Assembly (NCBI GenBank): GCA_024638765.1
Contig: JAHEJT010000034.1
Span: forward strand, 1 to 35,940
Length of the DNA stretch: 35,940 bases
Direction: 5' to 3'
Source: Verrucomicrobiales bacterium
Lineage (GTDB): Bacteria; Verrucomicrobiota; Verrucomicrobiia; Verrucomicrobiales; DEV007
Shown here piece by piece: positions 22,065 through 27,023 of this stretch. Positions within the stretch are counted from its first letter, which is position 1; every line of letters begins with the position of its first letter. The position numbers were made by a program, and so were the translations under genes. The notes beneath the pieces were generated by a model. The model saw nothing but the letters and a program-made list of their open reading frames with translations. It was not told where the DNA came from and made no database searches.

Positions 22065-25000
22065 CTACTGACACGCATCACATTCCCCGCCGTTCATCAT
22101 GGCTTCAATGCTGCAGGCCTGCTTTTGCTCTTCCGTGTATTCAGGGTTCGCATTGGCGCCACCGTTCTCTCCGGCTGCAGCGGCTTCGGATACTCCCCGC
22201 AGCTCTTTCTTCACCTGGATCGTCGCTTTTTCGATGTTGGAAGCGCCCAGGGTCCGCAGGTAATAGGTCGTTTTCAATCCGCGATGCCATGCCGCGCGAT
22301 ACATGTGTGAAAGCGTTTTCAAATCCGGCTGCTCCAGGAAGAGATTCACAGATTGCGATTGATCGATCCATTTCTGCCGGCGCGCCGCCGCATCAATGAG
22401 GTATTCGAAGTCCACCTTGAACGCGGTGGCGTACTTCTGCTTCAGCCCGGCGGGGATCTCGTCGATCTCCTCAAGCTCGCCGTCGTGGTATTTTAAACGA
22501 TCGACCATTTCATCGTTCCAGAGATTGAGTTTCTTCAGGTCGCGCACCAGGAACCGGTTGAGCACGATGAAATCCCCGGAGAGATTACTCTTCACGAAGA
22601 GATTCTTGTAGGTCGGCTCGATGCAGGGAGTGCTCCCCATGATATTCGAAATCGTCGCCGTGGGCGCAATCGCCAGCACGTTGCTGTTGCGCATCCCCTG
22701 CTCCTGGATCCGGGCGCGCAGCGCATCCCAATCCATACGGGCGCCGCGCGGGACTTCGACCTCCTGGCCGCGCTCTTCTTCGAGCAAATCCAAGGTGTCC
22801 TGCGGCAGCAAACCGCGCTCCCACTTTGATCCCTGGTAAGAGGAGTAAGCGCCTTTCTCTTTCGCCAGATCGCTGGAAGCTTCGTAAGCGTAATAGGCGA
22901 TCGCTTCCATCATTTCGTCGTTGAATTCCACCGCTTCCCGCGAGGAAAAGGCGTTGTCGCGCTTGTAAAGCGCGTTCTGCAGGCCCATGACGCCCAACCC
23001 CACCGGCCGATGACGACTGTTCGCAGTGCGCGCGGCATCGGTCGGATAAAAATTGATGTCGATGACGTTGTCCAAAGCCCGCACCGCTGTGCGCACGGTC
23101 TCGCGCAGTTTCTCGTGATCGATCTCGCCGTCTTCATCGACGTGCGTGTCGAGGACGACGGATCCCAGGTTGCAGACCGCGGTCTCGTCCGGCCCGGTAT
23201 TAAGAGTGATTTCGGTGCAGAGATTGGAACTGTGGATCACGCCCACGTGGTCCTGCGGGCTGCGGACATTGCAGGCGTCCTTGAAGGTAATCCAGGGATG
23301 CCCGGTCTCGAAGATCATCCGCAGCATGTTCTTCCAGAGATCAATCGCCGGCATCTGTTTGCCGAACATTTCCCCACGCGCGGCCTTTTCTTCGTACTCG
23401 AGATAACGCTCTTCGAACGCTTTCCCGTAAAGCTCGTGCAGATCAGGCGCCTCGTTGCTCCGGAACAGGGTCCACTGCTCCCTCGCTTCCATCCGCTTCA
23501 TGAAAAGATCTGGAATCCAGTTGGCCGTGTTCATGTCGTGGGTGCGCCGGCGGTCGTCCCCCGTGTTGCGGCGCAACTCGAGGAAATCGAAAATATCCAC
23601 GTGCCAGCTCTCCAGGTAAGCGCACCCCGATCCGCGCCGCTTTCCACCCTGATTCACCGCCACCAGCTGGTCGTTGTGCAGCTTGAGAAAAGGAATCACC
23701 CCCTGGCTCTCGCCGTTGGTGCCCTTGATATAACTGCCGGTGCCCCGGACCGCGGTCCAGCTCCCGCCGAGACCGCCCGCCCACTTGGAGAGAAAAGCGT
23801 TCTCAGAAATGCCCCGGTACATGATCGATTCGATGCTGTCGTCGACCTTGTAAAGATAACAGGAGGACAGCTGCGAATGCGGCGTCCCGGAATTGAAGAG
23901 CGTCGGCGTGGAGGAACAGAAGCGGCGGCTCTTGTAAAGATTGTAGAGGGATATGATTCTCTCCGTGGGATTTTCATCGAGGACGAAGAGCCCCATCGCC
24001 ACCCGCATCCAGAACAACTGCGGGGTCTCCAGGCGGCGATGCGGTTTCACCGTTTTGTCGATAATGAGGTAGCGGTCGTAGAGAGTCTGGATACCCAGGT
24101 AATCGAAATCCAGGTCCGCAGCCGGATCGATGGCCGCCGCCAGGGCGTCGAGATCGAAATCCTGCAGGCGCGGGCTGATGCGCTCGATCTGGATCCCGCG
24201 CGCGATACTCGCCTTGAAGGCCTTCCGGTGAAACCGCGGCAGCGCCTCAATCCCGTCACGGACGATGTCCCAGCCCATGACTTCTTCGTAAATGTAACTC
24301 AGCAGGATCCGCGCGGCGAACTGGGAGAAATCCGCGTCCTTTTCGATGAGGCTCTTGGCGTTGAGGATCACCGTCTTGCGCAGGTCGGTCTCCGACATCT
24401 CAGGGAACATCGAGCGGCGCAACTCGTGCTCGATCTCATCACGCGTCAGGCAAAGTTCCAGCCCGATCATGGCGAATTCAATCCGCTTTCTCAGATCCAC
24501 CCCGTCCCAGAGGTAAGTCTCTCCATCGTCCTTCTTGACGACGATCATGGTCTCCTGCAGGGCGTTATCCGCGCCCTCGGCGGCGTGGGCCTCCTCCTGA
24601 TCGAAAAGCCGCTGGCTGGCTCGGTGGGCGCGATAAAGAATGTAGGTCTCCGCAACCTTGTAATACCCCTGGCGCATCAACTCCTCCTGCACCCTGTCCT
24701 GGAGATCTTCGATATGAATGAAGTCGTGGCCGTGATTGGCCATGCGCTCGCCGAGCGCTTCTGCGATCTTGCGGGCCGGGCTGGAATCCATCTGCAGCGA
24801 AAGAAAAGCTTTGCGCACCGCGATCTCAACCTTGTTGGGATTCCAACCCACCACTTCGCCGTTGCGACGTATCACCCGGACCGCCGGCTTCTGGCCATGG
24901 GCACCGTTGGCACCGTTGGCGCCGTTATTTCCCGCGGCGGCTTCCTGTTCGGCCTGGCGCGCCAGTGTGCCGGTGCGACGCACGATGAGACTCTTGGCGA

Positions 25001-25403
25001 TGTCGTGCGCGTTCTGACGGATCAAGGCGCGCTCGATGACGCGCGTGATTTCTTCGGCCGTCAAGGTATGCTCTCGCTCTTCGCCGGCGGGAAGCTCGGC
25101 AAACACATCCTTGGCTACGGCACTGGAGACCGCCGCCACCAGGCTGCGGTTGTCTTCGGTGAAAATGTCTTTCTCGTTCCTGGAAAGGAGGAGATCGGTC
25201 AGGGCGTTGCCCACGGTATCCGCAATCTCGGCAATATTGAACTGCGTGGTCCGGTCGCCGACCTTTACGAGCAGCCGCGCCGCGGGTGGCTGCTCCTCAC
25301 AACGGGCCGCTTCCGCCCAATCGAATCGTGGTTTTAAATCCTTGGGCGCGGCGGCCAATCGTTTCAAGGCCAGGTCCTCCTCGACAAAATCTTTCCCGAT
25401 CAT
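22065..25403 (-). CDS. nrdA: Ribonucleoside-diphosphate reductase, alpha (large) subunit
   Basis: Catalytic subunit that reduces ribonucleoside diphosphates to deoxyribonucleotides. The 1112 residues are long because of two N-terminal ATP-cone regions: about 50-150 (less typical) and about 175-280 (VRVIRRNGEVVGWNPNKVEI onward), joined by an Asn/Gly/Ala linker. The catalytic barrel has Cys515 (SSCYL), the radical Cys729 with Asn727 and Glu731 (NLCTE), Cys744 (AVCNLGS) and the Tyr1047-Tyr1048 radical-transfer pair (TYYLRTLG). The C-terminal tail has Cys residues in GGECDACQ for re-reduction. It follows nrdB by 156 bases on the same strand. A long, ATP-cone-bearing alpha is also typical of the chlamydial class Ic enzyme, agreeing with the NrdB type found here. 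Confidence 0.95.
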   Translation of the reverse strand: MIGKDFVEEDLALKRLAAAPKDLKPRFDWAEAARCEEQPPAARLLVKVGDRTTQFNIAEIADTVGNALTDLLLSRNEKDIFTEDNRSLVAAVSSAVAKDVFAELPAGEEREHTLTAEEITRVIERALIRQNAHDIAKSLIVRRTGTLARQAEQEAAAGNNGANGANGAHGQKPAVRVIRRNGEVVGWNPNKVEIAVRKAFLSLQMDSSPARKIAEALGERMANHGHDFIHIEDLQDRVQEELMRQGYYKVAETYILYRAHRASQRLFDQEEAHAAEGADNALQETMIVVKKDDGETYLWDGVDLRKRIEFAMIGLELCLTRDEIEHELRRSMFPEMSETDLRKTVILNAKSLIEKDADFSQFAARILLSYIYEEVMGWDIVRDGIEALPRFHRKAFKASIARGIQIERISPRLQDFDLDALAAAIDPAADLDFDYLGIQTLYDRYLIIDKTVKPHRRLETPQLFWMRVAMGLFVLDENPTERIISLYNLYKSRRFCSSTPTLFNSGTPHSQLSSCYLYKVDDSIESIMYRGISENAFLSKWAGGLGGSWTAVRGTGSYIKGTNGESQGVIPFLKLHNDQLVAVNQGGKRRGSGCAYLESWHVDIFDFLELRRNTGDDRRRTHDMNTANWIPDLFMKRMEAREQWTLFRSNEAPDLHELYGKAFEERYLEYEEKAARGEMFGKQMPAIDLWKNMLRMIFETGHPWITFKDACNVRSPQDHVGVIHSSNLCTEITLNTGPDETAVCNLGSVVLDTHVDEDGEIDHEKLRETVRTAVRALDNVIDINFYPTDAARTANSRHRPVGLGVMGLQNALYKRDNAFSSREAVEFNDEMMEAIAYYAYEASSDLAKEKGAYSSYQGSKWERGLLPQDTLDLLEEERGQEVEVPRGARMDWDALRARIQEQGMRNSNVLAIAPTATISNIMGSTPCIEPTYKNLFVKSNLSGDFIVLNRFLVRDLKKLNLWNDEMVDRLKYHDGELEEIDEIPAGLKQKYATAFKVDFEYLIDAAARRQKWIDQSQSVNLFLEQPDLKTLSHMYRAAWHRGLKTTYYLRTLGASNIEKATIQVKKELRGVSEAAAAGENGGANANPEYTEEQKQACSIEAMMNGGECDACQ
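24901..24927 (+). repeat. 9-bp in-frame tandem repeat in the nrdA linker
   Basis: GCACCGTTG, GCACCGTTG and GCGCCGTTA on the plus strand. On the minus strand they encode repeated Gly-Ala-Asn in the linker between the two ATP cones. Confidence 0.8.
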
Positions 25404-25559: not shown

Positions 25560-26645
25560 TCACAACTCATCATCGTGCACCACTTCCAACGCCGATGCTT
25601 TCTGGTACTCGGTGACACGGCCCTCGAAAAAATTCTGCTCTTTCTGGATGTCCATCATCTCCGCCAACCACGGGAACGGGTTCTCGGTCCCGCGATTGAG
25701 CGGCTTGAGACCCACTCCCTCCAGACGCCGGTCGGCGATGTAATCAATGTATTGCAGAAATTCCTGCGCAGTGAGACCCACCGAACTCACCGGCAGGCAG
25801 TCGCTGATGAACTCTTTTTCGAGGCGCACGGCTTCCCTCATGAGATCGGTCAGCTCCTGCTGAAACGCTTCGGTCCAGATTTCCTTGTTCTCTTCCACCA
25901 GGTCCATGAAGAGATTGCGAAAGACCTCGATGTGATTCGATTCGTCGCGCAGCGTGTAACGGAACATCTGGCCGATGCCAGGAAACTTGTTCTGGCGATA
26001 GAGGCTCAGGATCATCCCGAAGAGACCGTAAAACTGAGTGCCTTCCATGCACTGACCGAAAACGAAGATGTTCTTGGCGAGCAGTTGTTTGTTGGCGGGA
26101 TCAGTGAGATCGATGTCCCGGCGCAATTCGCGGGAAACTCCGGTGACAAATTCGTTCTTATTGCGCACCGTTTCGATCTGCTCGAACATGGCCTCACACT
26201 CGTGGGGATTGATCCCCAGTGAACTGATCATGTAAAGGAGGCTGTCGGCGTGAATGTTCTCCTCGTGGGCGTGCCGGCCGAGCACCAGCTTCAACTCGGG
26301 GGCCGTCACCAGTTCGCGCACCACGTGGATGATGTTATCACCCACGATTCCTTCGGCCGCCGAGAAATACCCGATCCCCATGCGGATGATCCACCGCTCA
26401 CTGTCAGTGAGCAAATCGTGCGACTGCCACTGCTCGATGTCTTTCTGCATCGGGATATCCTCGGGCTCCCAATGATTCGACTTCATGGAACGATAGATGT
26501 CGTAAGCCCACTTATAGCGCAGAGGGAGAAGGTTAAAAGCCATGGTCTCCCTTCCGTTGATGACCCGCTTGGCGGCGTAAGCCTCCTCGGCTTTGGCCTG
26601 GTCGAGAACAAAGGTTTTGCTGCCGATTTCGAACTTCTTTTCCAT
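25560..26645 (-). CDS. nrdB: Ribonucleoside-diphosphate reductase, beta (small) subunit, class Ic type
   Basis: Ferritin-like subunit (361 residues) that supplies the radical-generating cofactor to NrdA. Metal ligands can be assigned by comparison with E. coli R2: Glu98 (SAAEGIVG, in place of Asp84), Glu129 and His132 (EENIH), Glu201 (CMEGTQFY), and Glu235 and His238 (RDESNH). The position of the radical tyrosine, four after the first His, is Leu136. Glu as first ligand together with loss of this Tyr is the hallmark of class Ic, first known from Chlamydia, which uses a Mn/Fe centre without a tyrosyl radical. The C-terminal radical-transfer Tyr is probably Tyr347 (VTEYQKAS). The start ATG is 330 bases downstream of two NrdR-like boxes. 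Confidence 0.93.
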   Translation of the reverse strand: MEKKFEIGSKTFVLDQAKAEEAYAAKRVINGRETMAFNLLPLRYKWAYDIYRSMKSNHWEPEDIPMQKDIEQWQSHDLLTDSERWIIRMGIGYFSAAEGIVGDNIIHVVRELVTAPELKLVLGRHAHEENIHADSLLYMISSLGINPHECEAMFEQIETVRNKNEFVTGVSRELRRDIDLTDPANKQLLAKNIFVFGQCMEGTQFYGLFGMILSLYRQNKFPGIGQMFRYTLRDESNHIEVFRNLFMDLVEENKEIWTEAFQQELTDLMREAVRLEKEFISDCLPVSSVGLTAQEFLQYIDYIADRRLEGVGLKPLNRGTENPFPWLAEMMDIQKEQNFFEGRVTEYQKASALEVVHDDEL

Positions 26646-26975: not shown

Positions 26976-26991
26976 ACACCATATATTGGTG
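26976..26991 (-). promoter_or_regulatory. NrdR-like box, proximal
   Basis: ACACCATATATTGGTG agrees with the NrdR consensus (acaCwAtATaTwGtgt) at 12 of 16 positions, including the C-N-ATATAT-N-G core. NrdR represses ribonucleotide reductase genes when dATP is high. Its core starts 32 bases before that of the second box. Confidence 0.7.
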
Positions 26992-27007
26992 ACGGGCTGC
27001 AGTTGTA

Positions 27008-27023
27008 ATACAATATATAGTAT
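27008..27023 (-). promoter_or_regulatory. NrdR-like box, distal
   Basis: ATACAATATATAGTAT agrees with the consensus at 14 of 16 positions and is nearly a perfect palindrome. A 16-bp gap separates it from the proximal box. Paired boxes about three helical turns apart are the usual NrdR arrangement. A minus-strand TTGAGC just upstream (27032-27027) could be a promoter -35. Confidence 0.75.

Follow-up and report, generated by a model that had tools for sequence, protein, structure and literature searches.

Introduction

Knowledge of class Ic ribonucleotide reductases rests mostly on one protein, the NrdB of Chlamydia trachomatis (NrdBzc; structures 1SYY, 4D8F/G and 4M1H/I). Small subunits of this class (R2c) are defined by a glutamate as first metal ligand, by phenylalanine, leucine or valine at the place of the radical tyrosine, and by a second-sphere pair of glutamate and aspartate (PMC6370689, PMC4118035). 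A 2013 paper mentions documented cases of leucine, isoleucine and valine in R2c (PMC3824934). Because leucine is listed in these earlier surveys, the leucine-bearing class Ic protein is already known as a sequence type; the literature searched yielded no such enzyme whose metals had been tested. The leucine forms bear on what the tyrosine-replacing residue and its neighbours do in class Ic. They are a natural variant of free-living Verrucomicrobiota, large in number and strictly conserved, that lacks both the aromatic ring and the pocket isoleucine.

Two further groups share the glutamate first ligand. Class Id R2 proteins (NrdBi; Flavobacterium johnsoniae and relatives) retain the radical-place tyrosine and use two manganese ions; after the first glutamate ligand they carry a lysine at +4, in the characterised subgroup, and a tryptophan at +7 (PMC6754362). 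In the F. johnsoniae protein Thr191 lies four residues before the ligand Glu195 (PMC8463856, PMC6370689). The R2lox proteins have a ferritin-like fold and a Mn/Fe site (PMC4118035), and lack both an NrdA partner and the C-terminal radical-transfer tyrosine.

Metal-site residues of a leucine-bearing NrdB

We analysed a 35,940-nucleotide stretch of DNA (the window) from a Verrucomicrobia bacterium, which encodes an NrdB with the following features.

25560..26645, minus strand: nrdB, radical-generating beta subunit of a class I ribonucleotide reductase, 361 aa, ATG start (Pfam, NCBIfam, AF2 model)
26469..26471, minus strand: Trp59, radical-path residue equivalent to E. coli Trp48 (alignment)
26352..26354, minus strand: codon of the first metal ligand Glu98, which corresponds to E. 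coli Asp84 and C. trachomatis Glu89 (alignment)
26250..26264, minus strand: second-sphere Glu128 and ligands Glu129 and His132 (alignment to C. trachomatis E119/E120/H123)
26238..26240, minus strand: Leu136 codon, at the place of the E. coli radical Tyr122 and C. trachomatis Phe127 (alignment; leucine in 81 of 81 related loci)
26043..26045, minus strand: Glu201, metal ligand (C. trachomatis Glu193; alignment)
25932..25958, minus strand: the stretch Y230-T231-L-R-D234-E235-S-N237-H238, with relay Tyr230, pocket Thr231, second-sphere Asp234 and ligands Glu235 and His238 (alignment, census)
25605..25607, minus strand: Tyr347, C-terminal radical-transfer tyrosine (E. coli Tyr356; alignment)

The product matches the R2 family PF00268 (3.9e-70) and NF005550 (341.7 bits, cut-off 309), and aligns with C. 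trachomatis NrdB (1SYY/4D8F) at an E-value of 3e-83 in HMMER. In this alignment E98/E129/H132/L136/E201 fall on C. trachomatis E89/E120/H123/F127/E193, and Y230/D234/E235/H238/Y347 on Y222/D226/E227/H230 and the C-terminal tyrosine (C. trachomatis ligand numbering from PMC6370689). The first-pass annotation had placed Leu136, within EENIHADSL, at E. coli Tyr122 and Glu98, within SAAEG, at E. coli Asp84, and had expected Glu89 and Phe127 as their Chlamydia partners; the alignment reproduces each of these placements. It had also named a tyrosine near the metal site as the observation that would speak against its reading, and the only tyrosine aligned there is Tyr230, the counterpart of the Chlamydia relay residue Tyr222. 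All six metal ligands are intact (E98, E129, H132, E201, E235 and H238), forming the E-E-H-E-E-H set with glutamate first; Leu136 is the non-tyrosine residue at the radical place, and E128 and D234 reproduce the second-sphere pair E119 and D226. Every published class Ic defining residue that we tested is thus present, in keeping with the class Ic pattern that the annotation had proposed, and its mention of leucine as a class Ic substitute agrees with the literature (PMC6370689, PMC3824934).

The fold points the same way. An AF2 model built from 64 sequences reached a pLDDT of 87.8, with low confidence in the C-terminal tail; a model from 40 near relatives (pLDDT 63) was set aside in favour of this wider alignment. 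The 13 best PDB matches of the model are all structures of C. trachomatis NrdB, some containing Mn/Fe and some lacking it, at TM-scores of 0.89-0.93 by target length. The next match, 6y2n, is a Glu/Phe protein; the score of 8dq3, a class Id structure, is far below these.

We read the window NrdB as the beta subunit of an O2-dependent class Ic reductase of a leucine-bearing lineage, in its Mn/Fe form, with a probability of roughly 0.65. Three other classes were considered and rejected. Class Id is excluded by the missing tyrosine, lysine and tryptophan, class Ib (NrdF) by the missing NrdI (PF07972 has no match in the genome, whose assembly is 93% complete), and class Ie, in which carboxylate ligands are lost and the tyrosine is modified to DOPA, by the retention of all ligands together with leucine at the radical place.

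Conservation of the Glu/Leu pairing

Eleven functional positions, including Glu98 and Leu136, do not vary across the 81 related loci, a set made up of 80 homologues from named genomes and the window's own gene; the Glu98 and Leu136 pairing accordingly recurs in 80 of the 80 homologues. A wider census covered 388 genomes of one phylum, 125 of which have an R2 gene, and yielded 133 R2 reading frames. Glu/Leu occurs in 87 of these frames, Asp/Tyr in 28 and Glu/Phe in 14, the last including L211, a remote ferritin-like protein that lacks the C-terminal tyrosine and was kept out of the trait comparison; the remaining frames are three fragments and one degenerate copy. Neither glutamate with tyrosine nor aspartate with leucine or phenylalanine was found in any intact census frame. 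Such linkage is expected if, as in class Ic, the glutamate ligand and the loss of tyrosine act in concert. The conservation of Leu136 in the 81 loci and the 87 census frames rules out that it arose by chance or through a sequencing error. Seemingly broken nrdB genes in genome G413 (L226, L227) turned out to reflect gaps formed by runs of N in the assembly rather than introns.

In a joint alignment of 40 viral and 24 Leu-lineage proteins, the viral R2 set contains Asp/Tyr, Glu/Phe and a single Glu/Tyr pairing, and none with leucine. The Glu/Tyr case (L300:1201-2148, on a viral contig) has glutamate as first ligand and keeps the radical-place tyrosine, a class Id-like pairing. Five other viral contigs (L270, L272, L281, L284 and L291) encode proteins with the Glu/Phe signature of class Ic in which a tryptophan replaces the relay Tyr222.

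A polar second shell and the identity of the metals

Leucine forms differ from the described class Ic proteins in more than the radical place. The pocket isoleucine, which together with two phenylalanines lines the radical pocket (PMC3824934), is the residue that Phe forms and the majority of Tyr forms carry; in the Leu forms it is replaced by Thr231, present in 168 of the 168 Leu-form sequences that cover the position. The census comparison further gives Thr203 for isoleucine, Gln204 for phenylalanine or tryptophan, Asn237 for what is mostly isoleucine, Asp134 for histidine and Asn130 for alanine, and the Leu lineage also adds Gln198. Polar residues surround the metal site in every Leu form, and these neighbours are absent, or nearly so, among Phe forms of the census; the pocket residues persist even in L190, the most divergent Leu form (51% identity). 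As far as the sequences indicate, the exchange of phenylalanine for leucine is one part of a residue package.

Set against C. trachomatis NrdB, the window protein shares the six ligands, the second-sphere glutamate and aspartate, a non-tyrosine residue at the radical place, the Tyr222 counterpart, the C-terminal tyrosine and the fold (TM-score about 0.9). It departs from it in having leucine for phenylalanine, Thr231 and Thr203 for isoleucine, Gln204 for phenylalanine, Asn237 for isoleucine and Asp134 for histidine, in its 41% identity and in its separate clade. Phe-type Verrucomicrobiota NrdB proteins (for example L092, L097 and L100) resemble it in phylum, Glu98, intact ligands and lack of the tyrosine, but carry Phe136 and a hydrophobic second shell, and group with Chlamydia. 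Since both types occur in this phylum, comparing their metal preferences would probe the basis of Mn/Fe selection.

Thr231 lies four residues ahead of the fifth ligand, as the class Id threonine does, which makes the identity of the metals a real question and means that Mn/Fe is not to be assumed. The Leu forms might instead hold two manganese ions as an Mn(IV)/Mn(III) cluster of the class Id kind, manganese being favoured at both sites by Thr231 and the polar second shell. This reading draws on the shared glutamate first ligand and threonine and on the polar surroundings of the site in every Leu form, and a metal-based oxidant, predicted for the window protein, would be common to both. We consider it unlikely, as Leu136 stands where class Id has its tyrosine, and Gly102 and Ile105 occupy the places of the class Id lysine (+4) and tryptophan (+7). 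The second-sphere Glu128 is kept where class Id has cysteine or serine (PMC6370689), the window NrdA carries ATP cones whereas none occur in known class Id NrdA (PMC8463856) and an ATP cone in class Id, if any, sits on NrdB, and the match to the class Id fold is far weaker than that to the Chlamydia protein. Manganese with iron is probably the metal pair, by analogy with the latter.

Descent of the leucine forms

In a 43-row maximum-likelihood tree covering few phyla, the Leu forms make up one clade (bootstrap 96, SH-aLRT 83). C. trachomatis NrdB clusters with Phe forms from other Verrucomicrobiota, in this tree and likewise with 83 rows, and the Phe forms are intermixed with Asp/Tyr forms. 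The identities agree with this placement: the Chlamydia protein is 75% identical to one Verrucomicrobiota Phe form and 41% identical to the window protein. The first-pass annotation had implied a descent shared with the Chlamydia enzyme and had called for a phylogeny across Verrucomicrobia and Chlamydiae. The trees place the Leu clade apart from the Phe forms with which Chlamydia groups and lend no support to the implied descent. A tree constrained to join Leu and Phe forms is worse by 17 log units and is not rejected (AU p 0.17), nor is one that joins the Leu forms to the Chlamydia-like Phe forms (AU p 0.094); the tyrosine may have been lost once, in an ancestor shared by Leu and Phe forms, or several times. 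The trees likewise do not support that the Leu forms descend directly from a Phe enzyme like that of Chlamydia, although the AU tests are compatible with it.

Relative to the known leucine sequence type, what is new here is a Leu clade that stands apart and has its own invariant polar neighbours. One could go further and see in the Leu lineage a separate metal-oxidant subclass, of an origin distinct from that of the Chlamydia enzyme, whose polar second shell might lead to a different metal choice or activation, for example Mn/Mn or superoxide or peroxide. We regard this as a tentative and rather unlikely proposal.

Proposed chemistry

For the class Ic Mn/Fe reading, the metals, their oxidation states and the radical path are taken from the Chlamydia enzyme. 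The six carboxylate and histidine ligands would hold the metal pair, most likely with manganese in site 1 and iron in site 2. O2 (or peroxide) would oxidise this pair to Mn(IV)/Fe(III), a substitute for the tyrosyl radical. Upon docking of NrdB on NrdA, the hole would move via Trp59/Asp234 and Tyr347 to NrdA Tyr1047/Tyr1048 and on to Cys729, which would start nucleotide reduction. Oxidation by the metals, with no stored tyrosyl radical, is very probable. The E. coli enzyme loses its activity when Tyr122 is removed, so sequence alone does not prove that the Leu enzyme is active.

The ligand set found here can also bind two irons, so that an Fe(IV)/Fe(III) di-iron centre is one conceivable oxidant. 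Another would be a transient radical on some other residue, for example Tyr230 or Trp59, both of which are invariant across the 81 close relatives. Tyr230, however, aligns with the relay residue Tyr222 of C. trachomatis NrdB, and the di-iron form of that protein is far less active than the Mn/Fe form, which counts against two irons. We hold either reading to be improbable.

The partner NrdA, operon control and genome setting

The window also contains the gene for the catalytic subunit and a candidate regulatory element, and a further reductase is encoded on another contig of the same genome.

22065..25403, minus strand: nrdA, catalytic alpha subunit, 1112 aa, 156 bases downstream of nrdB
26976..27023, minus strand: two NrdR-box-like palindromes, ATACTATATATTGTAT (27008-27023) and CACCAATATATGGTGT (26976-26991), from motif scoring
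G000 contig C135:3863-5290 (L003): class II B12-dependent ribonucleotide reductase (TIGR02504, 685.6 bits)

NrdA has the catalytic Cys729, the pair Cys515/Cys744 and Tyr1047/Tyr1048; every relative whose sequence spans the catalytic cysteine and the tyrosine pair retains them. An ATP cone lies at 176-261 (Pfam), and a second one, weaker and diverged, at about 45-150, which hhalign matches to the first with an E-value of 5e-5, in line with the long, ATP-cone-bearing NrdA described at first pass. Five NrdA frames in Verrucomicrobiota loci are 1362-1520 aa long, compared with about 950-1233 otherwise, and possibly contain inteins or fused domains.

This setting bears on whether the protein is a reductase subunit at all. 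A ferritin-like oxidase of the R2lox type, or a decayed R2, would explain the loss of the radical tyrosine, and R2lox likewise combines a ferritin-like fold and a glutamate first ligand with Mn/Fe (PMC4118035), the metals predicted for the window protein. It is hardly credible here: a full nrdA gene adjoins nrdB, Tyr347 and Trp59 are kept, no other R2 was found in the genome, and R2lox models score the protein at 53.8 bits, far below their cut-off of 194.

The palindromes are 32 bp apart and end about 330 bp upstream of nrdB; in several relatives a similar pair lies closer, at roughly 120-250 bp. Across 79 upstream regions, the best pair scores 26 against a shuffled maximum of 23, and the relatives' regions average 21.9 against 17.3 in simple shuffles. 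With an nrdR gene present in the genome, NrdR probably controls the nrdB-nrdA operon through the tandem box. No Rfam element was detected in the window, and no class III NrdD in the genome. Given the single R2, the class II enzyme elsewhere, the lack of class III and the NrdR boxes with nrdR, NrdAB is probably a main aerobic reductase and NrdR-controlled. At 5-1675 of the window, about 24 kb from nrdB, lie ATPase and permease genes predicted by eye to form a zinc/manganese-type metal ABC importer.

Second NrdB copies in relatives

Some relatives carry a paralogue, here NrdB', just upstream of the Leu-type nrdB. It occurs in G379 (L137:2470-3513) and in 14 other genomes (L321-L334), twelve of genus g230 (G439, G446, G453, G459, G465, G471, G478, G484, G489, G496, G503 and G519) and two of genus g229 (G450 and G482). 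Four of its six ligands are changed in a fixed way, mostly to Q98, R132, V/I235 and R238 (in full, Q or G98, R or Q132, V/I/T/A235 and R238), with E129 and E201 kept, and the C-terminal tyrosine is absent. As the copies are conserved at 50-63% identity to that of G379 and contain no stops, NrdB' appears to be maintained. Yeast Rnr4, which is unable to assemble the cofactor, partners Rnr2; NrdB', with its metal site lost, recalls Rnr4 and looks like a bacterial counterpart. A narrow literature search returned no bacterial Rnr4-like case, and a metal-less NrdB', if confirmed, would bring the yeast arrangement of two kinds of small subunit to bacteria.

A second NrdB is also found in tandem between nrdB and nrdA in G116 (L185:6447-7529) and G208 (L192:4896-5993). 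Its ligands are intact, while the relay Tyr230 is changed to asparagine and the pocket Phe209 to histidine. These tandem copies may show a second subunit at an earlier point on its way to specialisation.
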